From: Saururus chinensis | Taxonomy: Eukaryota; Streptophyta; Magnoliopsida; Piperales; Saururaceae | NCBI GenBank assembly: GCA_035235625.1 | Contig: CP141142.1 | Coordinates: 26,608,995-26,672,994, forward strand | Direction: 5' to 3' | DNA: 64,000 nucleotides | In this document: positions 15,931 through 53,787 of the stretch, one piece after another | How positions within the stretch are numbered: position 1 is the stretch's first letter | How the letters are laid out: every line of letters begins with the position of its first letter | Made by a program: the position numbers and the translations under genes | Notes under the pieces: model-generated | Seen by the model: only the letters and a program-made list of their open reading frames with translations | Databases searched by the model: none | Told to the model about the DNA's origin: nothing

Positions 15931-17303
15931 GCGCCTGATAAAGATAGGCGAGCAGAGCGCTTATGCGCCTTGCTGAAGCTCTTAAGCTCGCATTTCGCAT
16001 GGACGACAAAGAAGAGCGCGTTGCGCTCACGCGGGTCTAAAATGTTCGTTGTTGCCTTTATAGCTTTCTTTTCGAGGGCACTTTCTTTGGAAAAGCTTCC
16101 CCACGTCCACCCCATTGAAAGAGTCCGTTTTTGCCTCTGTTATTGAAAAGTTAAGTCAGGACCTCTTTTGTTGTATCTGCTGTGCCTATCTCGGATTCAG
16201 CTCAAAAAGCATACAGTTTTCTGTACCCATCCACCACCTGGGAAAATAAAGTCGTGCTATATGTATTGTATTTTATCCACAACCAATTGCATCTAATCCC
16301 ACTTATGTCTGTGTCGGTTGATGCGCCCGCCCTCTGATTATTGTTAAATAAGCCCCTTTTTCTTGATTCTAGTCTGGTAATCTATTCTCCTGCTATTCAA
16401 GTTCTAGACCTTACCCTTTCCCTGTGCTCTTTCTAATAGTCAATTTCTTTAGTGAAGCTAGCCTATTTGATAAAAGAACTTTCACTCTCCTTCAAACTTA
16501 AGTCCGGATACGATTAAGGCCAAGAAAAGCTATCCAATGGCTTCAATCACTCCTATGTCAATTTTGCTAAGCTCTTGCTACGTTTCCCTCTCCTACGACT
16601 AGGACTATCCTTTCCTACAACTAAGACTATTTACTGCTGCCAACGATGATTTAGCCAAGTGCTTTGGTGCCACTTCTGAAGCTAAAGACGTCACCTCTTC
16701 CTTGAAGACTATTTATTGCTTGTCTTTGTTGATGGTGTACACTACTTTACTGAAAGCGAATAGTGTGCTATGCACCTTCGACGCAGGGGAAGGCTTGCAT
16801 CAGGCTCCACAGCCAACTGCCCTGATTACATCTTCCACCCCCCAATATATAGAAAACATACCTGGGGGAGCTATGGGAACATCCCTAGTTCGAAAGCACT
16901 TTTCTAGACAAGTGCTTAACACCGGGGTAGAGCTTCTTCCCTCTCGAGTAATAAGAATTGGCATGTGAAGGCGATCGATTAATTCACAAGAGTGATTGAT
17001 CGATAACTCTTAGTTTTGTTTCACATAAGGTGAAATCAAGTGCCCAATTGATCATTTTTTCTTCATACTGTGTTGTGATCGATTGTTCTACCTATAATTT
17101 TACTATTTTACCCTTTTTATCCTAAACTCTTTTGAAACCTCTAAAATTACTTCTAAACTTGTCTAAATAATTTTGGTATATAAATATGATCTGAATAAAC
17201 TTAAAAAACGATAAACATCCTCTTGATCCATAGTAAAGACTCAACTCATAAGAACATGCATGCTCCTATTTTTAAAATTTATCAATTTCAAATCTAACTC
17301 AAG

Positions 17304-19549: not shown

Positions 19550-20170
19550 TCTCTCCCTTCCCCTTTCTCTCTCCCCCTTACCCTCTCTGCTCTCTCCCCT
19601 CCTCTCTCTCTCCTTTCACCTCTCTCTCCTCTCCTCCCTTTCTCTACCTTTCTCCTCTCTCCCCTTTCTCTCTCCTCTCTATCTCCCTTCTCTATCTACC
19701 CTCTCTCTCCCCTCCCTCTCTCTTGCTCCACCCTCTCTCTGCTCCTCCTCTCTCTCTCTTCCCTCTCCCCTCTCTCCTCTCTCTCCCTTCTCTCTCACTC
19801 TCTCTCTCTTTTCCCTCTCCCTCCCCTCCCTCTGCCTCCCCTCCCCCTCTCTCTCTCTTCCCTATCCTATCCTCTCCTCTCACTCTCGTCCCTATCCTCT
19901 CCTCTCTCTTTCTCTTCCCTCCCCCCTCTCTCCCCTATCCCCTCTCTCTTCCCTCCCCTCTCCTCTCTCTCTTCCCTCCCCCTCCCTCTCTCTTCCCTCC
20001 CCTCTCCTCTCTCTTCCCTCTCCTTTCTCTCTCTCTCTCTTCCCTATCCTCTCCTCTCTCTTTCTCTCTTCCCTCCCCCTCCCTCTCTCTCTCTTCCCTA
20101 TCCTCTCTCTCTCCACCCTTTCTCTCTCCTCTCGCTCTTCCCTCCCCTCTCTCTCCTATCTACCTACACA
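19550..20170. repeat. 620-bp polypyrimidine (CT-rich) tract
   Basis: The stretch is almost pure C and T on the plus strand, with CTCTCTCC and CCCTCCC motifs. It sits inside the CACTA element, and a shorter second tract is at 20,450-20,700. The flanking text (TCTACCTACACACTATCTC and what follows) occurs at 20,157 and again at 20,700, so about 540 bp were tandemly duplicated. Confidence 0.85.
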
Positions 20171-20252
20171 CTATCTCCTCTAATTTCAAATTTTTAATAG
20201 TTTTTATTCTTTAAAATTAATTTTAAAAATAAAAAAATAAATTAAATAAAAT

Positions 20253-20290
20253 ACTAATAGCGACGTATAAATATATACGTCGCTATTAGT
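20253..20290. repeat. perfect 17-bp inverted repeat (hairpin) in the CACTA element
   Basis: ACTAATAGCGACGTATA, a 4-base loop, then its exact reverse complement. A related hairpin with mismatches lies at 20,335-20,372, and a second copy from the local duplication at 20,792-20,829. Confidence 0.85.
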
Positions 20291-21375
20291 ACACTTATTA
20301 TCAACGTAGATATCTATACGTCACTACTACATGTACTAATAGCGATGTATAGAACTATATGTCGCTATTAGTATTTTATTTTAATTAATTTTTTTTATTT
20401 TTAAAAATAAAAAAATTAATAAAAAATTTTAAGAAAATAAAATAAAAATTCCTCTCACCCTCCCTCTCTTCCCTCCCCTATCCCCTCTCTCTTCCCTCCC
20501 CTCTCCTCTCTCTCTCCACCTTTTCTCTCTCCTCCCTCTCTCTTCCCGCTCCCTCCCTCTTTCTTCCCTCCCCTCTATCTCTCTCTTCCCTCCCCTCTCC
20601 TCTCTCTCTTCCCTCTCTTCCCTCCCCTCCCCTCTCACTCTTCCCTCCCCCTCCCTCTCTTCCCTCCCTTCTCTCTATCTTCCCTCCCCTCTCTCTCCTA
20701 TCTACCTACACACTATCTCTTCTAATTTCAAATTTTGAATATTTTTATTCTTTAAAATTAATTTTAAAATAAAAAAATAATTAAATAAAATACTAATAGC
20801 GACATATAAATATATACGTCGCTATTAGTACACTTATTAGCAACACATAAATTAAAGTCTCTAAAAGGTTACATATTAGCAACATTTGGAGTTATGTGTC
20901 GCTAATAGACTACCATTAGCGACACTTAGTATTATGTGTTGCTAATATTGGTATTTTTTGCTACGGTTTAGTATATGTCGTTATTATTACTTTTTAGTAA
21001 CACATAGTATTGCTATGCTTTTACCCAATTTTGTTGTAGTGAAATCAAGAATGATCATTTAATGCATGTAGTTTTTCTAAACCCAAAATTGAAGTTATAG
21101 GAAGATGTAAAAAATTTCAATCAACAGAAGTAACTAAACTAAAGGAAGGTGAAAATTCACCCAACAGGATTGAAAAATATGAATGATATTTTGTTATTGC
21201 TACAAAGAATCTGTTGGAACTGTAAAGCACGCTGTTGGAGACAACAATGACGCTGCTGCCATGAAACAATTCAAGCAACCTTCAGCTGGATTGCTGCTTC
21301 CCTATCCACCTTTTCTTGGGAAACTGGAAACGAGATGATAGAGGTAGAGCATCGCGTCGGGACAAATCAGCAGCC

Positions 21376-21385
21376 AGTTAAAGAG
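21376..21385. repeat. left 10-bp target-site duplication of the giant MULE
   Basis: AGTTAAAGAG precedes the left end and recurs at 39,287-39,296. The match can be read as up to 13 bp (with GAT), because the element may start with GAT or just after it. The paralogous empty site is at about 53,598-53,615 (AAGTCAAAGAAGGTTTAGG). Confidence 0.85.
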
Positions 21386-21745
21386 GATGCGAATTTGCTG
21401 AGGGTCTTTCGCTTAGTACCGATTGGCCACCAATGGGTGCCTTCCATGTCACAAGGACCAGCATCAGCATAGAGACACTCAAATTAATGGATGGCATTTG
21501 GGTCATGGCGACACGGAACTAGGATTTGGGTCATGTTGACGGAACCGGGAACCCGGTTTTCTAACAAAGATGGAACCAAGTTTTGAAACAAACAAAGAAA
21601 ACCCGCCTCATACAAAAGACACGAATCAGAACAAGTTCAGAAAAACCCAGGACTTTTTTCCTGCCTCTCATACTTCCTCCTGGTTGACCATCGCCACCAG
21701 AACTGTCCACCGTAGCGCCTCCCTTTTGATCGATCATGAACAAGA
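21386..21745 (+). repeat. left terminal inverted repeat of the MULE
   Basis: It pairs with 38,925-39,286 over about 350 bp with several small gaps. The shared tail includes CCGCCTCTC.TACTT and CGCC(A/C)CC.GAACTGTCCAC. The open frame running through it (21,570-22,139) has no recognisable domain. Confidence 0.8.
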
Positions 21746-23648
21746 GCCGCCGGAACCGGACTTATCGCATAGATCGGAGCCCAGCAATATAGTCATTCAT
21801 ATGTTTTCGGCACCCATTGCACTCCACCGCAATGTGAGTCATCCTCTGGTTGTCCACCTCCTCTTTGTTCCTGAAGCTCTTGGTTTGTCTTCTCTTTATC
21901 CCATTTTTTGGTGTTCTATACAAAAGAAGAAGGTGAAGAGTCCCAATTACCATGAAGGCCATCTAACCCACCACTCAACTACTTGTTCTGGTCAAAGGAG
22001 TCACCCATCTCACATTCAGCTTTCACGACTCCCTTCTCCTCTTTTGCTTCTTCTTCTACCCAAAAATCGTAGCTCAGGATGCTGGACAAGGAGTAAAAAT
22101 CCTTTTAGAAAAACTACAACTTCCGGTGTGATCTCCTAACTGACCGCCCTCTTACTCTCTTTTTCCCGCCTCTCACAGCTAGGCGCAATACAATCAGGGA
22201 GAAAGGGAGATAGAGTCTAGATGAAATGAGTAGAGGAGGGATGATGCCCTTTGATTTAAAAAATACTCCTAGTAGCTGCAAAAATCTGCTGTAGTTGAGG
22301 ACGACAATTCAGTGACTACGAGGGCTATTGCAATCATAGATATGATTATGTAGCTCTTTTATGTTGTTGTTGAGGAAGACAATTCAGGGGCAATGCTACA
22401 TATTGCAACATATCAACTCTACCACTTTTGAACTGCAGTTGGTGGTAAAGGTAAACACTTTGACTATGTTTATAATCTTATGCAGTCTGTGTTTTTTTAT
22501 GATAAAGCTTATAACTTACTATGTTCATACCGCCTTTTTTTTAGAATAGTTAATACATATAAGATTGAGGAGACTTGATCTCTGCAAGTATATGTTGCTC
22601 TGTTATTGTTTGATAAATTGTATGAATTTTGCTATTCAAACAAATTCTTAAGTGCGTCAATCAAAATGTCCCAATGTAGAACAATTAGTGTTAATGTTAA
22701 GGAGTGTAGGGGGTAGTGGATTATCAACAAGAGTTATATAATACTGTATGTTCAGCTTGTTAATGTTTGTTCTGCTTTTTGGACACTATAGCACAACGAC
22801 TAACATGTTCAAAATTTTCAAAGGTTTTTCTTTGAATTCTGAAATACAAATATAAAATTACTTTGTACTTGGTGTCTATTACGTGAAATTTCTTGCTGAT
22901 TCACATGCTCTTATATATATTTTTATTTATCAAGTATTTTTCTTTGTATACTGAATTGCTAGTCTAAAACTATGTTGTACTGGTGTTAATTCTATGAGAT
23001 TTATTAACATGAACTTTTTCTATTAAAAAAAGTGAAGTTATATCTTTCATATTTTATACTTTCACTAATAAAAAAGGTGAAGATAAATACTCTTGGTTTT
23101 ATTGAGTAGGCTCCTCTTTGTGTTGTTCACGATTGAGACAAGATTGAAAGAAAGGCAAGTTGCGGAGGTATCCTCCCTTAGCACGGTTTGGATGCAACTT
23201 AATCAATACCTTCAAAGAGATGGAAGTGTCTGAAAAGCTCATTACCACGCCGACCACTGAGTGATTAGGCAAGGTAAATTTTTTTCGGTTGCACATTTTG
23301 ATTTATCTTTTACCCGTCGCAATGTGATTAAAAAAAAGTAGGTGGTTACAATGCATTGGGGAGAAAAGGAAGAATTTAGGGTTTCAACATGAGATAACAT
23401 GCTGAATTTCTTATCACTTGAGTGCGATCCATTTTGTGTAGTATGATATTGAGCTGAATCGTTGGTGCCCATGATTTTAAAACATGTATTGGCCCTTGTA
23501 GCATATAAAATGGAGTGAAGACTTATGAGTATTTGGTTAAAAGATTTTGTTTCATGATTGGTTTTTGGCTTCCCTTATTCCTTGTGAGAAGTAATACTTA
23601 TGAAATGGTATGTAATTCATTCTTATTTAATTGTGTAGGCGGCATCAA
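21746..23648. other. non-coding stretch left of the transposase gene
   Basis: AT-rich DNA with no recognisable coding region. It ends in a polypyrimidine/AG (TTGTGTAG near 23,638) just before the transposase start codon, so part may be a 5' untranslated intron. Nothing else is supported. Confidence 0.5.
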
Positions 23649-26077
23649 ATGGAAGAATTAGAAGTGGACCTCGGTAAATCAAGTGATCCTACAGAAGAAA
23701 AAACAAGGGAGATATGGGAGCTAGAAGTTGGTATGAGATTTTCTTCTGAGGAAGAAGCATATGAGTTTTACAATAAGTATGCCCGAAATGTTGGATTTAG
23801 CATTTGTCGAGCCAATTCTCGTACAAATGTGAAAGGTCAAAGGTGTTATAGAAGATTTTGTTGCTCCAAAGAAGGTCATAGACTATTTGATAAGAGACCG
23901 GAAAATCCAAAGAATCATTGGCTAGAAACAAGAGTTGGATGTGAAGCCCAACTGGTCATCAATTTGGAACAAGATGGTGCATGGCGTATTCGGACTTTTG
24001 AAGAAAAACATAATCATGAGGTCACAATCCAAGTCTATGTTAATAGGCTAAGGTCACAAAGGAGAATGAGTATTGTTCAAGTTGTTGCTGCAGATATAGC
24101 AGATGGTTCAGGGATATGCCTAAGAGAAGTAGTTGAATTTATGGCTAAGCAAGTAGGGGGGTTTGAGAACCTTGGCTTTATTCAGGAGGACTACAATAAT
24201 TACTTACGTACGAAGCGCCAAAAAATAATTGACCAAGGAGATGCTTTTGCCATAATCAAGTATTTGAAAGGGAGGCGTACTCAAAATTCCTCATTTGAGT
24301 ATAGCATACAATATGATGAGGATCATAAAATAACAAACTTCTTTTGGGCAGACCCGGTTTCAATTATGGATTATCATCATTTTGGAGATGTTGTTTGCTT
24401 TGATACCACATATAGGACCAACAAATATTGTTGTCCATTTGGTCTGTTTGTGGGTTTAAATCATAATAAGATGACCATTATTTTTGGAGTAGTTTTATTA
24501 TATGATGAAACAATCCAAAGTTTTGAGTGGTTGTTCAAGACATTCATAGATACAATGGGTAGTCATCTAAAGACAATTTTAATTGTTTAGGATAAGGTAA
24601 TGGCTAGTGCAATAGCTTCGGTTTTACCGAATACCTATCATCGTATTTGTATGTGGCATATGTATAGGAATGCCTATAAGCATCTTAACCACTCATTTAA
24701 TTTAGTTATTGATGGCAAGAAGCCATTTGCCCATGACTTCAGCAAATGCATTTATGATTACGAGGATGAGGAATAATTTTACACAGCATGGGATAATATG
24801 CTTGAGAAGTATGAACTTCATGGAAATGAATGGCTAGAAGGGCTATTCAAAGAAAGAAAGAAAGAAATGGGCAATGGTTTATGGGCGACATATGTTCACA
24901 GGTGATATGAAATCAACACAGAGGAGTGAAAGCATGAACAGTATTCTAAGAGGATACTTGAAATCTGAGCATAATTTATGCAGGTTTTTTTATCATTATG
25001 AGAGGCTATTGGCTGATAGACGTTGTAAAGAAGGGAATGTTGAATTTAAGATGAAACATAGCATGCTAATTGTGACTGTTCATTCTTGGATCATGAAGTA
25101 TGCTTCAAGTGTTTACACACAAGTAATATTCAAGATGATCGAAAAAGAATATTTAGGTTGCCTAAACTATGTTGTTATAGAGGTTGTTGAGCATGATGTG
25201 ATGAAGGAGTGTACAATTGAAATGGATCAAACACAACACAAACACATTGTCAATTATGACCCATCAACCAATGTAGTTGTAAGAAGTTTAATTTTGTGGG
25301 TATCTTATGCCGTCATGCATTTACGGTACTTGATCACTTCAACTTACTTGAGTTGCCTCCACATTATGTTCTAAAAAAATGGACCAAAGAAGCAAAATTT
25401 GGTAGTGTTATTAATCGTCGTGGTTCTATAATTGAAGCAGATCCGAATGTTGCTCTCATGAGGAGGAATAATGATTTATGTCTGGCTTTTAGAAATTTGA
25501 CAACAAAAGCAACACTAACTGAGGATGCAACTTTAATTGCCCTAAACTATGTGGATACAATTTTGAAGGAAGTGCAAGAGTGTAATAATTGTGTAATTTT
25601 ACGACAACCCGATGTCATATCACATGGTAGGGTTTGTGATATCCAACATGATTCTTTTGGAGTGGACATAACTTGTAGTAGAAGTGACAAAGCACAAGTT
25701 GACAATGTTAATGATAGTGCAACTTCCCCACTAGTTAAGGGCTTCAAAGTAAAACAAGGAGGAAAGTGAGGTGTTCCTATGATCAAAAGTTGTCTTGAGA
25801 GGACTAAGAAGAATAAAACACTACCCAAAAGGAAGGCCACCAGATTAAATATGGACAATTGTTGTATCGAGGTATTATGTTTTTGTTTTTAGTAATTGAC
25901 TTGTACACTAACCTTAGCTAGATGTATATGTTTGAAATACTCTTTTCTATGGTGTAGGAATTAACCAATGGACTTCCAAGTGATTACATGCAAACTCAAC
26001 TTAGTCAAATAAATTCCCAATCGGAGTCTTCTTTGCATAGCCAATTGCCCGCAATGATCACTGACCAACATGGTTGA
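23649..26077 (+). pseudogene. FAR1/FRS-type MULE transposase gene, broken
   Basis: The ATG at 23,649 opens MEELEVDLGKSSDP. Next comes a FAR1 DNA-binding domain (about residues 25-115: FSSEEEAYEFYNKYARNVGF, CRANSRT, RTFEEKHNHEV). A MULE transposase domain follows (DVVCFDTTYRTNKYCCPFGL, GVVLLYDETIQSFEWL, HRICMWHM), then a SWIM-type zinc finger remnant (FVGILCRHAFTVLDHF near 25,290). Breaks: TAG at 24,588-24,590 where the family has glutamine beside a catalytic aspartate, TAA at 24,774-24,776, a frameshift near 24,867 and one near 25,280 that removes the CxC of the SWIM motif. A last intron, 25,872-25,957, leads to a C-terminal exon ending at TGA 26,075-26,077. FAR1/FHY3 transcription factors descend from such transposases, but its place inside a MULE makes the transposase reading more likely. 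Confidence 0.88.
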
Positions 26078-27231
26078 AGCATGATGAATTTATTATTTGT
26101 AAAACTTCTAATATTTTCCTTTTGGTTATCATCATTATTATACATATGTATAACTTCAAATCTTAGCAGATGAATATGTTTACAGATGCAAAATGTTTCT
26201 ATACCTATGCAAGGGGATTTGATCACTAGCAATATAGATACCATCGGAAGTAGGCATCACTACTTAGATCGAAGTAGCTCTCAGCAACCTAACTAGGTTG
26301 GATATTGTATTTGAAAGCTGCATATTATAGGTTTATCAAAACTTAATCCTTAGATTGAACATACTATAGTTTTGTTTATGCAGGTGGAAGCTTGTTTTTG
26401 TTAGGGGATGTTGTCAAGATTGCTATCCTCATTATGCATACATTGAAGTTTTGACTACTTATTGTGCAGAATGCTTGAACATACGATACTTGTGAAGAAT
26501 TTTTTGGGGAGGATAAGGGATTTTTTTGTGATAGTCATGTATTTAGCAACTAATCAATTTTTTTGTAAACACTGAACATATGCAAGTAGAAACTTGGTAG
26601 TTTTTTGTGCAAAAAGGATACAGATTAATAATCAGATATTGCTCGTACTTTCCATTTTTGTATTATTGTTCGGTACTTTACAGCAGTTAACACTTGATAA
26701 TATATTCTATTATTTTCCTATATCAAGCAACACTTCACTTACTCTCCCAACAGTGACCACAAAAGACTAATTTGCTCATTAATTTCTTATTCTTTTTAGT
26801 GTTATATCTTGTACCTTGCCTTCAACTGCTCTGAAACTCCATAGCCGTTACCTTAGGCCCTTTTTCTTTATCTTCTTTTCTTTTCTAGTAAAGGAGGTTC
26901 AGTGGATGCTTATGGTGATATTCCATTAATTGATTTAGTGTGTCGTATTATAGTATATAACTTGCAATCTGTGTATAAGTTTGGAACTCCCATGGTCTCA
27001 AAGAGGGTTGATTTGGAATATGTGATGTAATGACGTGATGGGGGATTTAAATAAAACCATTTCAAGACACGGCTTGGAAAGTTTTTTTAATGAAGAGAAA
27101 TGATGTCTTATTGCTTCTAAGAACCTTTCTCCAGGTAATTCTTTATGTGTTTGTTGTCTTTTGATCTGTCATGTTTATGTTTTTTATATGTTGCACTGAT
27201 GTTTTTCTTTATTTAACTATGTTATGTGCAG

Positions 27232-28183
27232 TCATCAATTGCATGATGGGATGTTATCCGTAAATGATATGAAGGTACTGGATATACCAGTGGAGTTTTT
27301 TTTTTTTTTGCAATACAAACACTATCATGGTTTGTCCAAATGACTGTTGTTCATGGCCATTTTTTTACTTTTCCTTTTGTGATTACTTGAATTAAACCAT
27401 TCTTGTTTTAGGAACAATTACTGTTGGAACTGTTTGAAAAATCACAGCTAAAGGTACTGGATACCATTTGTTGGTTATTTCATTTCAGCATCCTATCATT
27501 TGGCTGCAATATTTGTTTAAACAAAAAACCTTATGTTGGATTTGTGGTTCATGAAAAAAGCAGGCTTGGTTATCTACATTCTCACAAACACCATGTCAAT
27601 ATGTTTTTTTTCCATGTTGTTTTAATTCTTTTCTATATATTTCTATCACAACAAAAAGTTAGGAACATTGCCCTGAAGTTACGAGGGTATTATTTTTTAC
27701 CAATGTATATGATATACAGTGAACCTTCTAAAAAAATGCAAGTCATTTTTCTTTGGTTTGACCACTAGTTTATGACTTTTATGTCGGTTATTTTAGCTCT
27801 AGCTTGATAGTTTTAGAATATCTTGTGGATTTCTGGAATTATATTCTAACTATGTTTTGTATATTGACTTTCAATTTATTATCAGGAACAGCAAACCTCT
27901 ATGGAGAATGAAATTTTGCACAACCATGCAACTACAAGCTATACTCCATTTCGTTCTTATGATTGTCTGATGGATTGAGAAAAATCCGTTGATGATAATG
28001 GCTTGAAATAATTTGTAGGTTGAAGAATTATGAAGGATGCAAACAACTCCAGTGGGAAAGTATCTAGGGCTGAGATTTGTTGTTGGGAGACAATCCTGCT
28101 TGACACTTGATCAAACTCCTAAATTGGGAGATGAAGCTGAATTTCAGAACCAGGAAGATTCAACCACGACTTTGCACTTGGGG
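27232..28183 (+). pseudogene. 3' exons of a MIKC MADS-box gene (K-box end and C-terminal)
   Basis: Exon 27,232-27,274 (43 nt, AG before, GT after) reads HQLHDGMLSVNDMK. Exon 27,412-27,453 is exactly 42 nt, the size typical of a MIKC K-box exon, and reads EQLLLELFEKSQLK. Exon from 27,886 reads EQQTSMENEILHNHATTS, then YTPFRSYDCLMD and a TGA at 27,976. A later piece ends EDSTTTLHLG near 28,180, like the LHLG(L) tails of AGL15/AGL18-like and related proteins. The MADS DNA-binding exon and the first K-box exon are not found upstream. MIKC factors control flower and embryo development. This piece could only give a truncated K-domain. The subfamily is uncertain. Confidence 0.65.
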
Positions 28184-28189
28184 TACTTG

Positions 28190-29674
28190 TCCCTTTTAAA
28201 CTGTTTTATATTTCCACTCATCTTTCATTCTCTCTGGTTCATCATCTTTGCAATTAGAAGTCTACAATCACCAGATGCAGGTAAATAGTTTTGGCCATTT
28301 CTCATGGAAAAGAATAAATGAATTATCGAATCATAGCTGTTGAAATAAACATATGTTATGTGGTATGTTTTATTACAAGACAGATAATGACTAGCATTCT
28401 CTATCTAACTATGTTATGTGCAATTTTTTATTACAGTTTTGGTGAATCGTATATCCCAGGCTGCTTATCATAAGATACCATCAAAGAACAAAAAAATTTC
28501 ATGTTGAAGATTAGAAGTTAGCAACTAGTTTAAACCTATTCTTGTAGGAAACACCCTTGTAACTTTTAATGCATCATCATTATCATGTGGTTAGTAATGC
28601 ATCTGATATGTACCAAATAGCATAAAATAAAAGAGAACATTATCTTATCTATTTGCAACAGTGAATATCTTAGAAAAGCAAAGAAAAAAATTCAACTTTT
28701 AGTTTTGGGAATATATATGTCAAATAACTATAGGAAGAAAAAGTGTATTAGCCAAATAGTAGAACCATAAAGACAACCACATAAGTTAAAATAAGCTAAG
28801 TTTCCTACTTTGAAATGTGATATTACGTGTTAACTAGATTTCTATCATCCTGTCGTGTTTATCTCCATATCCCGAACTCGATCTATCCAATCTCTCAATT
28901 GTTCATTGCATTTGTGTTACGCTGAGCAGTTATGTAATCTCAATTAGGTCCTGCTCCGTTTTGAAATATTCATTTGTTTTTAATTTATATAATCTAGGTC
29001 TGTCCAACTATTTGTTACTTTTGCTGTAATGAATACAATTCCTCTGTTTCTCTCTTATTTTTTGTCACATGGGGCCTTTGCGCTAGGTAACTAGTTTTAC
29101 TTCTTTTTAGCTCCTAAGTATGCATCTCTCTGCTCTGTTTGTTGGGACTAAGGGCCTATTTGTTTACCTTAATCAGATCTTATCTGACAACCACATAACG
29201 AATTGTGATATTATGTGTTAACTAGATTCTCTCGTCGCAAACTGCCTATATAGAACCTTGTTTAAATATAGTCAAATGAAAAGTTGGATTGAGTCATATG
29301 ACTGTTGATTATGTTTAAGACTATGCATTTTGATTTAAGTATATTGTTCATTGATATGTCCATAAAAACATTTTCGTGAGAGTTCATGTAACTAACTTTG
29401 TTTAATTATAGCTCATTTTTACTAGGACTCTATTCTGTCTTGACTTCGATTCCTGATTTCCTTATGTTGCCCCACCTTTTTTAGTTTAAAACTCTCGTGT
29501 TTCCCATCCTTATCTCACTTTGATAGAATGTTATGTTCTTTGTCCCTAACCATTATGAATTCTAGTGCCCGGTAATATTATTTAATTTCTTACCTTACAT
29601 TTTTTATCTGGTCACATTTGCAAGTACTGTAATTAGTCTGATCAGCTAACAACATCTCATTTGCGTTCCTTGAT
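28190..29674. other. AT-rich stretch without recognisable gene
   Basis: GTGATATTA(C/T)GTGTTAACTAG occurs at about 28,817 and 29,203, a short dispersed duplication. Nothing else is supported. Confidence 0.4.
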
Positions 29675-30145
29675 AATGTTGTAGCAATAACGCTGCAACG
29701 TTGCAGTGATAATGCTACAACGTTGCAGCGTTATTGCTGCAATGTTGCAGCATTAATGGTTGCAGCGTTAATGCTGCAGCATTGAAGCGTTGCCCGATAA
29801 CGTTGCAACATTGTACCAATATCACTGCAACGTTGCAGTGATAATGCTGCAATGTTGCAGCGTTATGGCTGCAATGTTGCAGCGTTAATGCTGCAACGTT
29901 GCAACGTTCCTTGATAACGTTGCAACATTACACCAATAATGCTGCAATGTTGCAGTGATAATGCAACAACGTTGTAGCGTTATTACTGCAATGTTGCAAC
30001 GTTAATGTTGCAACGATGCGGCGTTAATGCTGCAACATTGTAGCAATAATGCTACAACGTTGCAGCGTTGCCCGATAACATTGCAATGTTGCCCGATAAC
30101 GTTGCAACGTTGCACAAATAATGCTGCAATGTTGCAGTGATTATA
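29675..30145. repeat. minisatellite of GTTGCAGC / AATGCTGCAAC modules
   Basis: About 470 bp consist of alternating AACGTTGCAGCGTTA and ATAATGCTGCAA-type modules of roughly 20-23 bp. Modules occur in both orientations, with occasional TTGCCCGATAACG and CACCAATAA insertions. AACGTT and TGCA are self-complementary, so the array is rich in small palindromes. Confidence 0.85.
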
Positions 30146-31996
30146 ACAGTCATGGTCCTGGACACGGACATGGTCAAACTATTTTTTATATATATTTTTT
30201 TTGCTTAGTTTATAGTATTTATTTTGGATCCTATAATAAAAAATACTTCCCCCCCCAACCCTCTCTCTTGCCGCCCTTACAATTTCCCCCACATTTTTTT
30301 CGCCCTTCTCTCTCCCTTCTCCTTGTCCATCTATGGGCAACGTGCTCGAGTTTAGTATGGCCACAATGCTCAAATTTCACTTGCCTATGTAGCCCTCTGT
30401 ATTCGAATTGCATCATGATCAAGGAGTCCTGTATCTAGTACAAGTACAAGTATGATTTTATAGTACATAGTATCAAAACTTTGTCTTATTGTGTCTATAG
30501 ACGTCACCATATATGCAAATTAGGGTTTGATTCATTGGAAAAGAAAATGAAGTTCCAGTTCATAGGTCTCTCTGGTTCTGCAGATCATGATGTCACCTAT
30601 TTTCTCTTCTAATACTCGTTGATCTATAGTAATTTTATTTTTTCTACATATAAATTGTTTGAAAGAGCAGACATTGTGAATCTGAGTGAGGACTTCATTC
30701 TCCAACTCGATTAATTATGTCTGTCACTCTAACCTTAAAACAACACCATTGGGAGATCAGTCCAGTCAACCACAACTATCAGATCTACAATATCCCTTCT
30801 CTGCCATATTCTTAAGCAAACAAGATGCTAATAAGACATTTTTATGCAATCCACAGCAAACAGTCAAATGTCCTTCACTAGACTTATCTTTCTACAAATA
30901 AATACAGGAAGAGATCATATCCGCCCCTATCAATTTTCCTCAATGAAGTGGCCAATATTGTTTCAAACGTGATATGAGCATTTTTAGTTATAAATACATT
31001 AATGGTCAGTTGATTACGTTCTTTACCACACCTAATGGATGTGAACAAGTCGAACTCAGGAACTCCAAAAATAGAGGATACACATTGTTCATTTTAGCAC
31101 TGATTAGTCAATCCACAATATTAATTTGCATTGGAGCATATCACCAACAAAAAATGGTCAAGCAAATGCTATTAGCCCAATAGAACATGTGATGAGCATG
31201 CCTCCCAACCAGAGTTGTGTATTCTCTGGTAACAACCTCCTTCCTGCCCTTTCCCTTCTCAACCATTTTTGCTGCTCCACTCAAATGTGCTCTCAGAACC
31301 ATTTTTATTGCTCCACACAAATGTGCTCTTAGAACCTACATTGATAGAACAAAAATGCTAATATTAATCTCTTTCTATACATATACATAATATATATATA
31401 AGAAAATCATTGAAAGGAATACAAACAAGCACATCTTTGGACTATCACATACATATATGATAAAAACACTAATTAATTGCTATAGATTGCACAAAAATGG
31501 ACCTGAGGCATTGCTACACCAATTAATAGATAGAAGCACAGAATGGAGATAGCTCAAGATGGACAAAAGATCAATATCAATGGCATTGATCCCATTATGG
31601 AATAAATTATCCTCAACTAAGAGTATTGATTTATCCGCACCTAAGAGATAAAATCTAAGCGAGAAACGTAAAAAAAAAACCCTTACATGATACTATAGTG
31701 CAGTCCGATCCCAAAGAAGAACAATTAAATTTCATCCTAGGATGGAGAAAAATGACAATAAAACAGAGATAATGGCTGACACTAATGAATATGCAAGATT
31801 CCTACAATTTCTCAAAGCAACAACAAATGCAAACAAAAAAAATAGAGTAAATAGATTTAAATCCATCAAAGTGATAACAACAGAAAGAGAATTGTGACCC
31901 ATTGGTCAGCTATCTAGAAAACAGTTCAGAGTAGAACCACATTTATATCATTCAAAATAGAGTGCATCCAAAAGGACAACTTATAAAATAACTGAC
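30146..31996. other. stretch without recognisable gene
   Basis: CT-rich at 30,250-30,340. A short direct repeat, CA(C/A)CATTTGTGCTCT-like after AACCATTTTT(G/A), occurs at about 31,260-31,335. TOPLESS exons downstream of the last one at 31,997 were looked for on the minus strand and not found. Confidence 0.4.
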
Positions 31997-33840
31997 TTGG
32001 ATAGCCTCTTTATAATGGGGGCGGACAGAATATACATGAGCTTCATTCCCTTCAGACATATATTGCCGACTGCCAGCTACAGCATCCCAAACCTACCGTT
32101 CGTGTAATATGTATAAATTAATGATCCATTTGTGTTTACTTCTCCTAATTTATATTTCTCTGTTCTCCATCAAAGTTCTCATAAAAATTTACCTTAATTG
32201 TCTTGTCATAACCACATGCGACAATCCAGAGTAGCTTGTTAGGATGGGAGAATACTATGTCATTGACCCCACCTACATGTGCATCAATCTACAGATACAT
32301 ACAAGTCAGCTGCCAGAATACAAGAGGTACAAAATGACACATCGTCCTCTAGAATATAAGATTTGTCTTCCGGGTGTTGTCTCAGTTCTCTAGTTGGACT
32401 ATAAGTGTGCACCCGGACTATATGCTTGGAGAACGCCACACCTAATATTCAAGCAACAGAATGAAAAGTGGTTCTTTTAAGATGAACATGCACATATCAT
32501 GATCATTTAAGACATAGAAACATAAAGATTAGGGAAAGAATTCTACCCAGTATTGACCCATCTGGACCCCAAATGCACTGATTGATAGAAATGGTGGCAT
32601 CTTTCATCAACGTTGTATGGTATACAGTTCACTGTAAAAACAATTAGAATGAGCTCAATGGTGTAACCTCTAAGAATTTAAAAATTGGGAAGAACGCATA
32701 ACACCGTATACATGCAATGGCATTGTTCATGCTGAGATGTCCCAAACTGTGAAAGTGTTATGAGCCAGTCTTTCTCGAGAACCAACCTTCCATATACCAA
32801 TGTTGCCAACATTTGTCCCAACTGAAGTAAAAATATTGGAAATGTTAATGGACCTATGCCATCAGTGACTAGCAATGACTTCATTAGACAATTAGTGATA
32901 CAACTGCACTGCATAAGAGGGAAAGTCCACCAAGTAAAATTGTCTACTGATGTGGATGAAAATCCATGCTCATGACATTTGAACCTTGGCTAAGAGATTG
33001 CACAATAGTCTTTGTTGGTCATCTTGTGAGTAAATATTCAGGTGGATGAGTGGCGCCCAAAAAAGATACCTAATAATACATACCCAATTAAATTATGTAG
33101 CTGCCAACATTTTACTAGCAATAGAGAGGTAAAAACTTTTAATTTTATTGGTTGTTGTAATAGTACCTCATCAGATTAGAACATCCATTTCATCAAGTAC
33201 ACAAGCAACAAGAAAATTCACAATCAACTTAAACATAATACGCATAACTAAGAAGAGAAAATAAGAAGCAAGTTGTTAAATCATATCAACACCTGAAGTT
33301 AACAAGAGTAAGCATTTCAGTAATTTCTTTGAAAAGTTTTTCATTGAAAGAAGCAAATACTTTAAGGTCTTTCACTAAAATTTCAACTATCTTGGCCCTG
33401 TCATGCCTGTAAAGACACAAAACACTAATTCCAATATCCAGTAAATTCTCCAAAACATATTGGAAATAGGCGAGTGCATGAGACCCACCTATCAAGAGCT
33501 TCAAGATATTTTTGCATTCTAATTTCAAAAAATATCTTCATAGAATAACGACTGTCCTCAACTTTCATGAACCCACATAGGTACTTTTCAACTTCATCCC
33601 ATTCACCCACTAGAACTCGGTCCTCAAAGTATTTCATGTTGAAGTAGAAACCAGATTCTTGTTCCAATCTAAAATTGAATGAAACCGCATCAAAAAACTT
33701 GAGCAACAAATAAACCGTCCATTGAAAACCTGAACAAGATGAACTGAAAACTAGAGGTAGGTAAAGAAGTTACTTGTGCACTGTTTCCTTTAACTTCTCC
33801 TCGTCCAAAAACTATAAGATTAGAAATACCAACTGCTCAT
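31997..33840 (-). pseudogene. TOPLESS/TPR corepressor pseudogene with introns, gutted
   Basis: Exon 1 (33,774-33,840) has an ATG, then FLDEEKLKETVHK after a frameshift and a CAG-to-TAG stop. Exon 2 (33,489-33,668) reads LEQESGFYFNMKYFEDRVLV and RYSMKIFFEIRMQKYLEALD. Exon 3 (33,293-33,416) reads HDRAKIVEILVKDLKVFASF. These are the LisH/CTLH exons of TOPLESS. After a gap lie WD40-region pieces: QGSNVMSMDFHP (about 32,950), VGTNVGNIGIWKVGSRERL (about 32,790), ISINQCIWGPDGSILG (about 32,570), GVAFSKHIVRVHTYS (about 32,430), IDAHVGGVNDIVFSHPNK (about 32,260) and VWDAVAGSRQYMSEGNEAHV (about 32,080). The proline-rich middle and the last WD repeats are missing. TOPLESS proteins are nuclear corepressors recruited by EAR-motif factors. 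Stops and deletions make this copy dead. Confidence 0.92.
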
Positions 33841-34125
33841 CGAAAAATTTAGTTGTCTTGCACTGATACTGAAACAATGCTATATTATATAGTAATATCA
33901 AAAGAGAGTATAACAAAAAAATGTTCCTATCTAAATAAGATTAACCTATATGAGTCACAATTTTAACTAATATGGTCCATTGGAAGAGAGATGAAACCTA
34001 TCAAAATAAATGCTAAAATGTACCATCAATATAGTTTTCATCGAAAATATATAAAATTTAAGGTTCTTACCATCACATCGAGGTTCCTACTCATTCAACA
34101 TAGCCTCTCAAGATCTCTGCAGCCA

Positions 34126-36959
34126 TTACAAGTCCCAAGCGCTGAGAGATATCTTCCTAAAATACTTGAAATAATTAATATTGCATCCCCTCACTTTGAA
34201 TGAAGGTACAAAGAAGAAACTCAAATAGATATCTACAATTGGGCCATATACCTGAGTAAAATTAACCGGCAGTCCAGAATTAATGCAATAGACTGTACGC
34301 ATGAGGAAGAACTCACAATCAACCCCATTGCCTTGATATAGTCCCTTCTGACTATTGATCTTCCACTTTTTAGCATTAGAATCCTTAAGGTGCTCCTCAA
34401 CTAATACTCTTATGTTTGCCATCTAGACATATTAGCTGAATTAGTTTAAAAGCCATCACTGAAAAAAGACATTTTCACTTAATCAAACAATTACTCACCA
34501 ATTTCCTCACATTCGGCAGCCTTTTCTTATGGCCATACCCTAGCATTGAATCAAATCATTTTACTTCACCCTCGGTCACATCTACCACCAACAAGTGGAA
34601 ATGTGCATTGTCACATAGTGGTAAGAAGATGAAGTCAGGGCAATCTTTATCAGCTCCAAAACAAGTGGTCGTTAGGTCATCCATTATGTCTTTTGCCATA
34701 TCCTTCTCTAGCAATTGGTGTGGATTTGACTTAGTACATATCCTAACTTAATTCAATAAATAGACATTATACGATTGACCATAGCTGGGTGAAATAATAT
34801 TGCAAGGCAAAGCTCCTAAAGTGGCATTTGGGAAAGGCATCTATAACCTACATGCATCGAAACATACATTTAATATATAAGCAATATTAACTAGTTAAGA
34901 TTTAAAAGGGATAAATTGTAGTCTTACATTAGAGGATATGTACTCCGCCTTCAACATATCTATCAAGTCTTTGTCAGCGACACCAACCCCCGCCATAGAG
35001 TGGTTCCCGTCTTTAATGAATTTTTCAATAGTATCTTGGTCCCACTTAGTCAAATTAGAGAGGAGACTGAATAAATTCATCTTCAATGGCTGGCGAAGGA
35101 TGGTAGGGACTGGTTGCTTGGTTGAGGCCTAGGAAGAAATTACAACAGTTGCAGCCTCCACGTCTTCAGTCAATGCCTTATTCTCCCTCTTTGCTCTCTT
35201 TGTCTCTTATGTAAATGGAGTCCCATACTTCTTGCTTTTATATTTCATCCGTACAGGCCTCTTCAATGGACATTCCACATTATCAACACCCCTATTCTTA
35301 TATCCATCTCCCTCCTCATCCTTCTTTCTCTCCTCCCCATCTAGCCCCTCCTCTCTCTTACCCACCTCTTGCTCCTCTCCCCCATCCTCTCATCCATCCT
35401 CTGCCTCTTCCCCCTCCTTACCCTCACCTCCCACATCATCACTCTTCTCTCCATCATCTTCATCAGCTGCTTCACCACCTTCCTCATTGTTCCCAACTCT
35501 AGGGGGGGAGGCATGCCTCATCTTCTTTAGTGGCCTCTTCACCAAATGATTGGCCATGCTTTTAAATTTTGAAGAGTTTTCTGAAATGGCGTCAATTACA
35601 CCATGTAGCTAACCTGTATGGTAACCCTCCTCATGTAATATATACATGGCACTCTGCACAACTCCAAGTGCAGAGGACATATTCTCTATGGAGGACTTCA
35701 AGACCAATCGTCCTCCCCCACTATCCTTCCCCTGCTCCAGAGCCTCGGCTCCTACCTTCCTTTTCTTTGAAGTTTTTCTTGCCTCTTGAAATAGATATGC
35801 CTCATTTGCAGTAGGAACCAACGTAGATAAAACCTGCAGTCAACATATGCACAATTATTTAACATCCAACTTTCAATAAAATTAAGAGTTGAACAACTCT
35901 AAAAAACTCTCAAATAATTTATTATATATATTATCATGTTGCAATTACCTCTTATGGTCTCACATATTTGAACAATTGCGCATATCTACCCACCGACCTG
36001 TGGTGTGTTCCCTCTTTTTCACCCTTTACAAGGCCACAATTTGGCCATTTGCAAAATTGGGGTAGCTTCTCCGGCATAGGGGATATGAACATCCAAAAAT
36101 GTTCAAACACCCACACCAATGACATATAATAGATATACATTAGTATCTTGTAGCTCCCACATAAAAATGAAAATATAATTATGTACAAAGTATAAAATAC
36201 CTGTAGGACAAATGCGGCTCCAATCAATGATCCGTATCCCTCAAACTTGCCTTCCTCCTTCAACACAAGCTTCCTATGGAGCGCTAAGGCTGAGCTTACT
36301 AAAAAGTCATAAATAGCTTGCGGCTAGTCATACCGATGGAGGTTGCCCATGTCTTCCACCAGGTCAACTAACTCGTTCTTGACCACATGGTTGGTCTGAG
36401 GAAATGGAAGGCATACAAAAATGTGCAAGACGATCAATCTTGCACAATCCTCCATTGATTTATAATCAGTCTTGCCCTGTAATAGGTCCAGTTTCCTTTC
36501 AATTTTAGACCTTGTAACCTTCTTCCCAAAATGGTGCTTACAAAAATCACCCCTCTGCCGTTTCTGGCCGAATACCACCCGATCGCCCCCCATTTTTAGG
36601 CTAGTGATGAGGGCCACATCCTCCACAGTAAAGTCCTCTCTGTGTCCCCTGAATGTGACCCCAAGTTGAGCCTCAGACCAATAACCCAAAATAACTTCAA
36701 ACAGTGATGCCTGACAAATAATGGTTATGGCTTCAAGCAATCTGATGAATGGGGTCTGGCCAACCAAGTTCTTCACCTGCGGGATGGTAGAGAGAATGTT
36801 GATTGACTTTGCTACTCCCATGGGGGTGCAAGGGACTTTTAGTGACTCACGCCTAATAATTTTTGACCATACTGAAAGGTTTGGGCTCCTCTTCTTCATT
36901 TCAAAAACTTCTGCACATATATCCACGGATGAGTACGAAGGTATATAGATGTTTAACAA
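34126..36959 (-). pseudogene. Ulp1 (C48) protease / DUF1985-type transposon gene, broken
   Basis: The N-terminal part at 36,959-36,324 reads TPFIRLLEAITIICQASLFE and GVTFRGHREDFTVEDVALIT, like plant DUF1985. The piece at 35,952-36,266 adds YGSLIGAAFVLQ and VWVFEHFWMF. An acidic, lysine-rich linker follows (about 35,215-35,550). The C-terminal part has the C48 catalytic histidine and aspartate context HFHLLVVDV...FDSMLGYG (about 34,530-34,610) and the cysteine box QGNGVDCEFFLMRTV (about 34,310-34,355). The usual glycine after the cysteine is glutamate, and the tryptophan before FDS is TGA. Further stops occur in the linker. Ulp1-like proteases remove SUMO. In plants such genes are carried by Mutator-like elements (KI-MULEs). 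It lies 286 bp upstream of the TOPLESS remnant in the same orientation. Confidence 0.75.
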
Positions 36960-38380
36960 AAGTGTTCAGTATACTCCATGAATAACATAGCCATATAATT
37001 CAATATCTTATGAGTAGAGATCTCAATTCAAGAATCATTTTTACTTATGAATCTTTTAAAATGAAAAAGAAAATTAAAATAGTTGGTGAAACATACATCA
37101 AGAAGCTTGTTGAAACGTTATAACAATAAAGCCAAATCATTATACAAATCATGTTATAAAGTCTTAGCAATTATACGATAACAATTTACTAATAATGCTA
37201 ACATGGTTTTAGCAATAATGCTTGGAAAATGTGGCACATACTTAATTTATTGATAATAGGATTATCATCTACGATAATGCTAAAGCATCAACAACAATGC
37301 TAAATCATTAGCAATAATCATAATACATCAGCAATACTCTTACAAGTTCAACAATATTGCTAACACTATTTCACCATAGGGATTAAAGAAAACATACTTG
37401 ATTTATTCTTCATGATATAGGGATTTGATATATGGAAGCCTCGTGTGGAGAAGACACTAAATGTTCAATGACAACTCCTGAAACATCATAAAGTGCATTC
37501 ATAAAGTTATAATGTTGTGAAGAGAATTTAGCATTTTAATTTTAGAATAAGCCAATCACATAACATAAAACTAGAGACATATAACATATCAATAGTACAC
37601 ATGAAATCAAATGCACAAATGAGATGCTTGTATGTAGTTTGTAGCATTAAGCAAATTTCTTTAAAAGTGATGTGAATGGAGATCAAAATATGAACAATTT
37701 GACCATATGAGGGATTTCAAAGTCTCACGTCCTAAGAAATAGATATAAATGACAGAATATCTCACAACATAGACCAACAATTGAGCATTGAAAGATAATT
37801 TTTTAAAAGACATTAAGAGGTTTTTTTTCGAGAAATTGAGCGTGGCAAACTGAAAAAGAAAGAAATTCATAGAAGAACATAGTGACTACTATTCAATAGA
37901 CAAAAATAACCAAAAAGTTGGATAGACCCAGATCAGAAAAATTATAAACAAATGAATATGGCAGCACGGAGCAGGTTCCAAATGAACAAAAGAAAAAAAC
38001 ATCCAAATGAAAGCACATAACTACTCAACTAGACACTAATGCAATGAACCGATTGAGAGATCAGATAGACCTAGGTCAGGATACAGAGATAAACATAACA
38101 GGATGACAGAAATTGAACCCAGGCCAAAAATTTGTTATAGGGGAGTTTCCAGAACGAGTGAGGACGAGACCCAGGAAGGCAAACCAGAGAAAATGGCTCA
38201 AAATTGGGCCATGCCAAGAGAAGGTAGAGGAGAAATAGAGCACGAAATGCAGGTGATCCCCGCACCATGCTTCACCAACATATACAGAATAAGCAGGGAC
38301 TAGACAAAGAAAATTAATGCAGAAACACAATGATATAAGAGACAGATGAAGAAATATTTGGCATTACTATTCGGGAGCCG
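36960..38380. other. AT-rich stretch without recognisable gene
   Basis: AGCAATAATGCT-like strings recur at about 37,150-37,370, a weak tandem array that shares the ATAATGCT module with the minisatellite at 29,675-30,145. Nothing else is supported. Confidence 0.4.
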
Positions 38381-38740
38381 CTACGACTTCCTCGGTTCTG
38401 GCATTGACGGCCAATCAGGAGGGAGGAGGTGTGAGAGGCAAGAAAAAGGGAGGCTTTTCTGGCAGCTAAGTGGTCGCAGTCGATCAAGAGGGTGGCGCTC
38501 CGACTTCCTTGGTTCCGATGGTGACGATCGATCGGGATGGAGGAGGTGTGAGAGGCAAGAAAAATAGAGGTTTTTTCCGGTGGTAGTTTGGTCATTGGCG
38601 ATCAAGAGGGAGGCGCTCTGACTTCCTCTGTTCTAGCGGCGACGGTCGATTAGGAGGGAGGAGGTATGACAGGTGGGGAAAAAGTCTAGGCTTTTTCTCC
38701 CGATCTTCTCTCCCGTGTTCGTTTGACTAGTTTTCTAGCG
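38380..38740. repeat. 117-bp tandem repeat, about three units, right end of the MULE
   Basis: GACTTCCT(C/T)(G/T)GTTC starts units near 38,384, 38,501 and 38,619. Each unit contains GGGAGGAGGTGTGAGAGGC-like text and GATCAAGAGGG(A/T)GGCGCTC. Confidence 0.75.
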
Positions 38741-38783
38741 GGAATTTGGTCAAGGTCAAGTCTATGCAGTGGACAAGGAGGGA

Positions 38784-38940
38784 GGCGCTGCAAGGGACAA
38801 TTCTGGTGGTGATCAAAAGGGAGGCGCTGCAAGGGACAGTTCCGGTGGCAATCGAATGTGAGGCACTGCTATGGACAGTTTCGGTGGCGATCAAGAGGGA
38901 GGCGTTGCAGTGGACAGTTCCGGTGGCGACGATCGACTAG
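38784..38940. repeat. 39-bp tandem repeat, four units, right end of the MULE
   Basis: GGCGCTGCAAGGGACA-like unit starts fall at 38,784, 38,823, 38,862 and 38,901, an exact 39-bp period. Only one unit equivalent exists at the left end (about 21,695-21,735), so the array expanded at the right end only. Confidence 0.85.
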
Positions 38941-39286
38941 GAGGGAGCAAGTACGAGAGGCGGGAAAAAGTCGGTCGTTTTTTGAGCTTCTTGATTCGCG
39001 TCTTTTGTACAAGAGGTGGGTTTTCTCTGTTTGTTTCAAAGTTTCAGAACCTAGTTCTATCTTTGTTAGAAAACCAAGTTCCCGGTTCCGTGTCTGTTAA
39101 TTTAAACATGACCCAAATCCTAGTTCCGTGAACGTGACCCAAATCTTAATTCCGTATCGCCGTAACCCAAATGCCATCAGTTAATTTGAGCATCTCTTTG
39201 CTGATGCTGGTCCTTGTGATGTGGAAGGCACTCATTGGTGGCCTATTGGTGCTGAGCGAAAGACCCTCCCCAGCAGATTCGAGTTC
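38925..39286 (-). repeat. right terminal inverted repeat of the MULE
   Basis: Reverse complement of 21,386-21,745, with extra short duplications (a second GGAACTAGGATTTGGGTCA-like block near 39,105-39,135). Confidence 0.8.
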
Positions 39287-39296
39287 AGTTAAAGAG
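39287..39296. repeat. right 10-bp target-site duplication of the giant MULE
   Basis: AGTTAAAGAG, identical to 21,376-21,385. The host sequence then continues GATTTAGGTGG as in copy 2. Confidence 0.85.
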
Positions 39297-39788
39297 GATT
39301 TAGGTGGTTAATGGTTTGAGATATTGAGAATTGTTGGCTTGTGATACGAGTCTTTCACTAACTCAAATTCAGAGGGCCTCCTCTGCATTCAGCCGCAGAG
39401 TAACATAGCCCTTACGAATATTCCTCTTTCCATATCAAAATCAATCTGTCCTTGAATTATATAGTTCGTCCGATGATCAAAATTTAATAACGCGTGATAT
39501 AATATATATATATATATAGAGAGAGAGAGAGGTATTTACTTTTTGTTTATATCTCGGCTCTACTACGTGACTGTATATACATCTATTCATATTTAAACAC
39601 ATAAATTAATATTCATACCTTTATCTTACTGGTAAACACGTATAATTTAATTAAACTTATCACTCATCCGAAACACATATCTACGACATCGTCGTACAAA
39701 ACGGTTCCACTCGGTAATTTTTCTAAATACGGACCGTAAATGGCCCAAAACTGCAAAAACTCATGATAAATATGGTTCATAATACTAG

Positions 39789-40202
39789 TTACTCGACAAC
39801 TCTTGCAGATTCACGCTCCACTGCTTGCATCAAGAAGCTGCCCTCTTCAAGCACCATCTGAACAGGCAAGAAGCCCAGCCCGTCTGCCATGGCCAGCAAC
39901 ATCTGCTTCATCTCCGCCCTGAACTCTTCGAGATCCACCTCCCCGCTGCAGTCGTGGTCGAACTGCGCAAAGAGCCCGTCGTAGACCGGCCGCAGCTCAT
40001 CGGCCCTCATGACCACGTCGAAGCCGAAGTGTTTCTCCAAGACCCTAAGGCACCTGAGCTCGTTCATGAGCTCTGAATACGACAACCGCCCGTCGTCGTT
40101 CGCGTCCAGCCTGCGAAAGAGGCCGTCCACCGACTTGTGGAAGGCGCTGTCGTCCTCCACGAAGCTGCGGATGGTGGCACCGTCCAACACCTCCACACTC
40201 AT
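39789..40202 (-). CDS. two-EF-hand calcium-binding protein, intact
   Basis: A 137-residue protein, single exon, starting at the ATG whose product opens MSVEVLDGATIRSFVEDD. An in-frame upstream ATG at 40,271 would add 23 residues, but family members begin at the chosen one. EF-hand 1 (about residues 37-48) is DANDDGRLSYSE and EF-hand 2 (about 86-97) is DHDCSGEVDLEE. Both have acidic residues at loop positions 1, 3 and 12, or conservative equivalents. The tail GLGFLPVQMVLEEGSFL is typical of the small plant family annotated as calcium-binding EF-hand family proteins. It is probably a soluble calcium sensor; partners are unknown. The coding part is much richer in GC than its surroundings. A dead paralogue is at 54,077-55,492. 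It is the only apparently working gene in the window, about 500 bp from the end of the giant MULE. Confidence 0.9.
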   Translation of the reverse strand: MSVEVLDGATIRSFVEDDSAFHKSVDGLFRRLDANDDGRLSYSELMNELRCLRVLEKHFGFDVVMRADELRPVYDGLFAQFDHDCSGEVDLEEFRAEMKQMLLAMADGLGFLPVQMVLEEGSFLMQAVERESARVVE

Positions 40203-40358
40203 CCTAGCCAAATGATTAAAAATGGCAACTAGAAACAAACGAAGAAGGGAAAAAGTGGCAACGAGAGACAAACGAAGAAGGGAACTGAAGGAAAGAAAGA
40301 GGCTCTGGTGCGATAACTTATCTTCCCGTATGATATGATCGTTTTCAGGGGAATTTTG

Positions 40359-40366
40359 TATTTATA
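40359..40366 (-). promoter_or_regulatory. putative TATA box of the EF-hand gene
   Basis: The minus strand reads CTATAAATAC about 155 bp upstream of the ATG. The equivalent upstream text is partly kept in the paralogue near 55,630. Confidence 0.5.
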
Positions 40367-49370: not shown

Positions 49371-49378
49371 ATTTTTCT

Positions 49379-53482: not shown

Positions 53483-53787
53483 GCTGCCATGTACCAATTC
53501 AAGCGACCTTCAATTGGATTGTTGCAGCCTTATCCACCTTTTTTTTGGGATTCTGAGAACGAGATGATAGGGGAAGAGCATCGCGTCGGGACAAATTGAC
53601 AGCCAAGTCAAAGAAGGTTTAGGGGGTTAATGGCTTTAGATATTGAAAATTGTTGGCTTGTGATATGAGTCATTCACTAACTCAATTTCAGAGGGCCTCC
53701 TCTGCATTCAGCTTCAGAGTAACATAGCTCTTACGAATATTCCTCTTTCCAGATCAGAAATCACACCGATCAAAATTTAATGGTGCG

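Follow-up and report, generated by a model that had tools for sequence, protein, structure and literature searches.

A 64,000-nucleotide window of Saururus chinensis DNA (contig CP141142.1) contains a single inserted element that belongs to a large, multi-copy family of Jittery-type Mutator-like elements (MULEs), a reading to which, together with the mechanism set out below, we assign a probability of about 95%. The element occupies positions 21385 to 39286 (17,902 bp), and is an old, small and decayed member of its family. An original prediction, made from the letters of the window, had described a MULE whose long inverted ends mark a single insertion. The class is confirmed by the ends, a 9-bp duplication and a MULE transposase domain, and the singleness of the insertion by the end alignment and by relatives with the same interior between the same ends. 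Three gene bodies are supported within it, namely a transposase gene, a DUF1985-Ulp1 gene and a TOPLESS fragment, rather than the four or more unrelated ones first proposed, and two of the three are a published combination.

The terminal inverted repeats pair 21390-21732 with 39281-38888 (BLASTN; 398 columns, 74.6% identity, nine gap openings), the aligned spans being 343 bp on the left and 394 bp on the right. A direct repeat, AGTTAAAGAG, is present at 21376-21385 and 39287-39296, within a 14-nucleotide string common to both flanks. When 12 registers were tried, the 9-bp register paired 12 of 16 terminal bases without gaps, against 4 of 16 for the 10-bp register and 7 of 16 for the best other; over 30 terminal positions it scores 15, tied with one other register. 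The 9-bp register was chosen because family copies start with GGA(C/T)GCG and carry 9-bp duplications in the same register. The target-site duplication is the 9-bp AGTTAAAGA, not the 10 bp first given, and the single insertion announced as 17,901 bp from 21386 stands as such, but with its start and length corrected.

A paralogous site 14 kb away lacks the insertion, as had been claimed for the sequence near 53,598-53,615. Positions 21255-21384 match 53483-53614 (83%) and 39287-39443 match 53606-53763 (90.5%), with an overlap of 9 nucleotides between the two matches, and the joined flanks of the element are identical to this site in 245 of 281 columns. The local duplication runs on at both sides of the element, in several pieces, and an EF-hand gene lies beyond the site in both duplicate copies (39789-40361 and 55199-55630). 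This protein has 282 relatives in a database search; among the best 120, all with an organism name are plants, at identities of mostly 62-70% and 75% at the top. The simplest order of events is local duplication first and insertion second. Two further features of these flanks were observed: an insertion of 998 bp at 54129-55126, near the EF-hand gene of the paralogous copy and with a direct repeat of 5 bp (AGCTG), and long CT-rich arrays at 19550-20697, directly before the element, in which two stretches are 86% alike over 402 columns.

The transposase of the window copy matches the Pfam domains FAR1 (1.8e-22), MULE (PF10551, 2.5e-13) and SWIM (3.6e-5); a second match to the MULE domain, after a stop, is below its cutoff (2.3e-5). 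Autonomous MULEs are expected to have an uninterrupted transposase, and this one has in-frame stops at 24588 and 24774 and frame changes, placed by eye, near 24850 and 25275. All seven aligned relatives have an ILTD motif, the Asp of which we take to be catalytic, which in the window has become ILIV, with the first stop coming next. A protein search found 757 relatives, the best of them 47% identical (best 120 of 757 considered). The N-terminal FAR1 and C-terminal SWIM domains are those of the Jittery group, in which the C-terminal domain is a SWIM or a CCHC finger (group 36 in the part of PMC6446971 available to us). An origin as a long terminal repeat (LTR) or CACTA element was rejected, as no LTR pair was found and MULE domains are present.

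The genome (516,460,831 bp in 11 contigs) was searched for further copies of the ends, and a comparison of their interiors supports one element. With about 40 candidates scored in each search, the numbers given for ends, transposase and TOPLESS fragment are lower bounds. The left end has at least 41 matches (40 of 142 candidates scored), the right end at least 45 rows (40 of 159), and the transposase at least 42 rows at 39 or more places (40 of 103), with identities of 84-96% except for the window itself. Each of 41 left matches was joined to its closest opposite right match no more than 40 kb away (40 rows for the right end, after five short ones had been dropped), which gave 21 end pairs of 5.0 to 32.9 kb, two of which have one right end in common. 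Ten pairs are of at least 17.9 kb, and the window copy, whose size had been presented as an oddity, is the shortest of them; nine of the ten contain a transposase match, the exception being the longest. Nine copies were fetched, seven of them full-size, including one (C5_47.96) recognised by its left end only. An exact 9-bp duplication flanks four of the eight two-ended copies fetched (C7_40.195, C3_50.96, C1_32.65 and, by eye from the flanks, C5_42.61), and C9_0.404 has 8 of 9 bases. Among the matches listed, relatives keep most of the window interior in order, mostly at 86-96% identity, C7_40.195 and C9_0.404 being examples that do so over most stretches. C6_17.36 and C3_50.96 are collinear and 97% identical over about 22.3 kb; C2_0.395 has lost about 3.2 kb and is otherwise mostly 96-99% identical to C6_17.36. 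Since an exact 9-bp duplication flanks C3_50.96, movement of a unit of about 22 kb is shown. At full size, members of the family are mostly 18-23 kb.

Some of these relatives are better preserved than the window copy. With a Magnolia relative as query, C6_17.36, C2_0.395 and C3_50.96 (three of the seven full-size copies) are stop-free in one frame, over matches that start at residue 32-46 and end at 640-666 of 713; in the remaining four, 1 to 16 stops interrupt the transposase, and some of these copies have split frames. A transposase open reading frame (ORF) of 754 amino acids in C3_50.96 (L040:2602-4863, + strand; MULE 4.9e-28, FAR1 9.6e-25, SWIM 2.7e-5) is a sign of recent activity in this 22-kb relative. 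It could be proposed instead that the element is a Pack-MULE in the strict sense, with host fragments only and a FAR1-like piece taken from a host FRS gene. It does contain an intron-bearing host fragment, and among the matches listed database relatives are often annotated FAR1-RELATED SEQUENCE; yet this transposase recurs at the 39 or more places counted above, at 84-96% identity and in many cases inside the same end pairs, and we consider such an origin extremely improbable.

The DUF1985-Ulp1 gene is broken by stops. Its C-terminal pieces, chained with X at the stops, match Peptidase_C48 (PF02902; 1.5e-6, 28.6 bits, cutoff 20.7), and by this chained match a C48/Ulp1 peptidase domain lies between the ends, as in Ulp1-carrying MULEs. 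Taken singly, no antisense piece has a match at the Pfam cutoff, the first giving only a plant mobile domain at 0.075. The counterpart ORF in C3_50.96 matches DUF1985 (6e-10, 39.7 bits, cutoff 35.1), in a stretch that is 93% identical to the window.

A large part of the interior (9,332 of 17,902 bp) is without a named gene or repeat. Of the 69 ORFs of at least 60 amino acids, 47 were scanned singly against Pfam; the other 22 overlie named genes or the right arm. The unnamed sequence could suggest two independent or nested insertions that resemble one element, and this holds in part at 31738-33697, a stretch missing in several relatives, as captured cargo. Much of the unnamed sequence, however, recurs in relatives between the same ends, which leaves the suggestion barely credible for the element as a whole. 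Also within the interior, 28838-29035 matches 37890-38113 in inverted orientation (71%), and GC skew changes sign near 29 kb. Both are in line with a fusion of two related MULEs in this copy, the segment at 28.8 kb being the remnant of a second left arm. But both arms, and the sequence from the transposase to 29.2 kb, lie at the same places in C7_40.195, C9_0.404 and C3_5.66, and no second end pair was found among the inverted pairs listed (25 of 42). As the inverted pair is present in relatives, it is an old feature of the family and no scar of the window copy, and a fusion is highly improbable. A structured RNA behind the internal inverted repeat was rejected, the only matches in Rfam and tRNA scans being those at 49.4 kb.

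TOPLESS is a central plant corepressor. On exon chains, the fragment matches TPR1-like_2nd (CTLH, 2.6e-41), LisH_TPL (4.4e-11) and WD40 (1.7e-7), and all five PDB matches of one of its ORFs are to TPR1 or TOPLESS. The ORF at 32681-32989 has no PDB match, but it is in another frame than the WD40-like reading, and its empty search therefore says little. The fragment retains two full GT-AG introns plus a third donor, and its first exon has a stop. In a DNA search (40 of 75 candidates scored), TOPLESS sequence gave at least 43 rows at 30 or more places, of which two are host genes. Eleven of these loci were read (L010-L020), and ten have other MULE sequence adjoining. The eleventh, L014, has none; together with L048 it is the host TOPLESS gene on C7, which on its upstream side reaches its start codon and on its downstream side continues in the manner of the other host gene, on C8. 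No match to the remainder of the window element was found in the 9.1 kb of this locus. Window positions 33834-33191 correspond to C7:1020103-1019460 (94%) and 33198-31858 to C7:1018537-1017163 (90%). The start codon, at C7 1020122, is just outside the captured piece, and 922 bp with middle exons are missing from it, the two flanking blocks having 8 nucleotides in common. The host gene at C7:1017163-1020103 is the parent and, as in Pack-MULEs, it lies elsewhere in the genome. With the parent identified and introns kept, capture was from DNA.

The spread of TOPLESS pieces is also seen. In the window and in L010 it is the 5' part of TOPLESS that remains, behind the Ulp1 gene. The pieces in L011-L013 begin at 33714 and those in L015-L020 at 33432, and each adjoins end-repeat sequence; these loci may be of the Pack-MULE kind. 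L015-L020 keep the middle of TOPLESS, and several extend farther into the gene. One capture with later trimming and several captures both fit. Constraint was compared in two exons (59 and 34 codons). Between the parent and the C8 gene there are 27 synonymous codon changes and 1 nonsynonymous, and between the window piece and the parent, in small numbers, 6 synonymous and 9 nonsynonymous. Between the window and other MULE copies, most changes are nonsynonymous, at close to the share of 0.75-0.79 expected under neutrality; between the parent and L010, L016 and L018, synonymous changes outnumber nonsynonymous ones in the shorter exon, with 3 to 5 changes each. We read the window piece as evolving neutrally, with no sign of constraint on the protein. 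A working TOPLESS protein in the window copy was rejected on the changes against the parent. Identification of that parent makes it possible to reconstruct how and when the gene was captured.

The cargo behind the Ulp1 gene has been swapped within the family: it is TOPLESS here and a mitochondrial carrier in another subfamily. In C3_50.96 a fragment of the latter lies between the minisatellite and the Ulp1 gene, which is the place of TOPLESS in the window. Its 1,261-bp surroundings have 32 genomic rows (all 32 candidates scored), of which 14 are full-length at 95% identity or more, and no diverged host parent was found in the genome with this region. It could be envisaged that the slot is refilled with host genes and that these are kept because read-through from the Ulp1 gene makes small RNAs or truncated protein against host TOPLESS. 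We consider this very doubtful; the swap of cargo is observed, and the benefit to the element is conjecture.

Several points weigh against the reading of the element as one Jittery-type insertion. Six of the seven full-size relatives diverge from the window at 33697, and the TOPLESS piece is whole only in C5_47.96; in these six the stretch that contains the first TOPLESS exon is still present, and at least that exon is therefore older than the split of the copies. Three of the eight two-ended copies fetched have no duplication. Ends were paired by nearest opposite match, with the check on sequence limited to fetched copies, and the 32.9-kb pair, on C4, may contain a nested insertion. A protein search with the antisense chain of the window found no match (none of 7,996 scored). 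The Jittery-type assignment, made on domains, is a putative one, and the 9-bp duplication and ends of about 350 bp differ from the 8 bp and the 39-292 bp (or no ends) listed for that group in the available part of PMC6446971. Maize Jittery itself has a 9-bp duplication (PMC9569675, likewise available in part), so the 8-bp criterion may not be defining.

On our reading, a family transposase, presumably supplied by one of the related copies, made a cut with a 9-nucleotide stagger in the target, which lies about 0.5 kb downstream of an EF-hand gene that is one of a locally duplicated pair. Repair duplicated 9 bp, and the sister locus retained the old site. The unit in which the family moves is about 18-23 kb long and has the transposase on one strand and the DUF1985-Ulp1 gene on the other; host TOPLESS may have been captured during repair of a transposition gap. 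The window copy is dead, and since copies with an uninterrupted transposase region exist, it could in principle move in trans.

The ingredients of the element have all been published for MULEs, and the transposase and DUF1985-Ulp1 genes are a published pair; for TOPLESS capture, swapped cargo and a length of 22 kb we found no report. What follows holds for the available parts of the papers cited. MULE duplications are of 8-11 bp (PMC6446971); inverted ends are long in many MULEs and missing from some. The element had been called very large for a MULE, but grapevine has Mutavine-1 (17.7 kb), Mutavine-18 (16.2 kb, with Ulp1), Jitvine-2 (14.4 kb) and Jitvine-1 (11.9 kb), and grapevine duplications, where found, are always 9 nucleotides (PMC2528002). 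These families resemble the present one in size class and in an Ulp1 gene downstream of the transposase, also found in some Jittery-like families, and one contains host sequence, exons and introns of cellulose synthase. For Jitvine-1 and -2, ends and duplication are not listed, whereas our family reaches about 22 kb at full size with TOPLESS or carrier cargo (PMC2528002). Arabidopsis Kaonashi/KIU and melon Ulp1-MULEs have the Ulp1 gene in common with it, antisense to the transposase in KI-MULEs as here; however, KI-MULEs have a mudrA-type transposase and no inverted ends, neither of which applies to the window element (PMC2528002, PMC13317346). Maize Jittery shares the N-terminal FAR1 domain, long ends and a 9-bp duplication, but its ends are about 200 bp and cargo is not mentioned (PMC9569675). 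Pack-MULEs likewise have host gene fragments between MULE ends; none in the cited set exceeds 7 kb, and they bear no transposase gene, whereas the window copy does (PMC6431247). A literature search on Pack-MULE and TOPLESS found no report, and for Mutator-like elements and TOPLESS the paper considered, PMC3503547, deals in its available part with distinct genes within a cluster. Neither a MULE longer than 17.7 kb nor TOPLESS cargo was met in the available parts of PMC2528002, PMC13317346, PMC6446971, PMC3310237, PMC6431247 and PMC9569675. A transposase-bearing family with terminal inverted repeats, whose moving unit is about 22 kb and which has 97%-identical copies and stop-free transposase regions, is longer than the largest published MULE that we met and tests ideas on the cargo limits of DNA transposons (PMC6431247, in its available part).

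Table 1. Features of the element, its unoccupied site and the alternative cargo (window positions unless a locus is named).
Feature	Position	Strand	Basis or remark
Left copy of 9-bp duplication AGTTAAAGA	21376..21384	.	Flank comparison, registers, relatives
Left terminal inverted repeat	21385..21732	+	End alignment; at least 41 genomic matches
Broken Jittery-type transposase (FAR1, MULE, SWIM)	23631..25766	+	Pfam; stops, frame changes, ILTD altered
Segment repeated inverted at 37890-38113	28838..29035	+	Self-comparison; relatives
Minisatellite, near-palindromic 22-bp unit	29678..30141	.	Relatives: same place and left arm
Captured TOPLESS fragment (LisH, CTLH, WD40-like exons with introns)	31858..33834	-	Pfam, PDB, parent gene
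Antisense DUF1985-Ulp1 gene, broken by in-frame stops	34100..36965	-	Bound 34100 by eye
Inverted partner of 28838-29035	37890..38113	-	Self-comparison
Tandem repeats, 118- and 39-bp units, right arm	38373..38929	-	Related to terminal repeat
Right terminal inverted repeat	38888..39286	-	End alignment; at least 45 genomic rows
Right copy of 9-bp duplication AGTTAAAGA	39287..39295	.	Flank comparison, registers, relatives
Paralogous unoccupied site	53483..53763	+	Single target copy at about 53606-53614
Mitochondrial-carrier fragment	L041:4697-5164, genomic C3 50.98 Mb	-	PF00153 1.2e-15

Elsewhere in the window, an ORF at 48106-48441 (+) matches mitovirus RNA polymerase (PF05919, 9.4e-7) near a tRNA-Asp (49378-49454) and a ccmC-like piece, and this region is perhaps mitochondrial DNA transferred to the nucleus. 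Both copies of the local duplication have ORFs like mitochondrial cytochrome c assembly protein, at 15493-16146 (+) and 50100-50555 (+), which are 82% alike; the Pfam scan, of the first ORF only, gave a match to PF01578 below its cutoff (2.4e-5). Retrotransposon pieces are present at 7363-9229 (-) and 44917-45312 (-), with gag pre-integrase, Pol beta-barrel and SH3-like domains, and with a retroviral-type aspartyl protease. A 433-amino-acid ORF at 58448-59749 (-) matches a thiamine pyrophosphate enzyme domain below the cutoff (2.4e-6).

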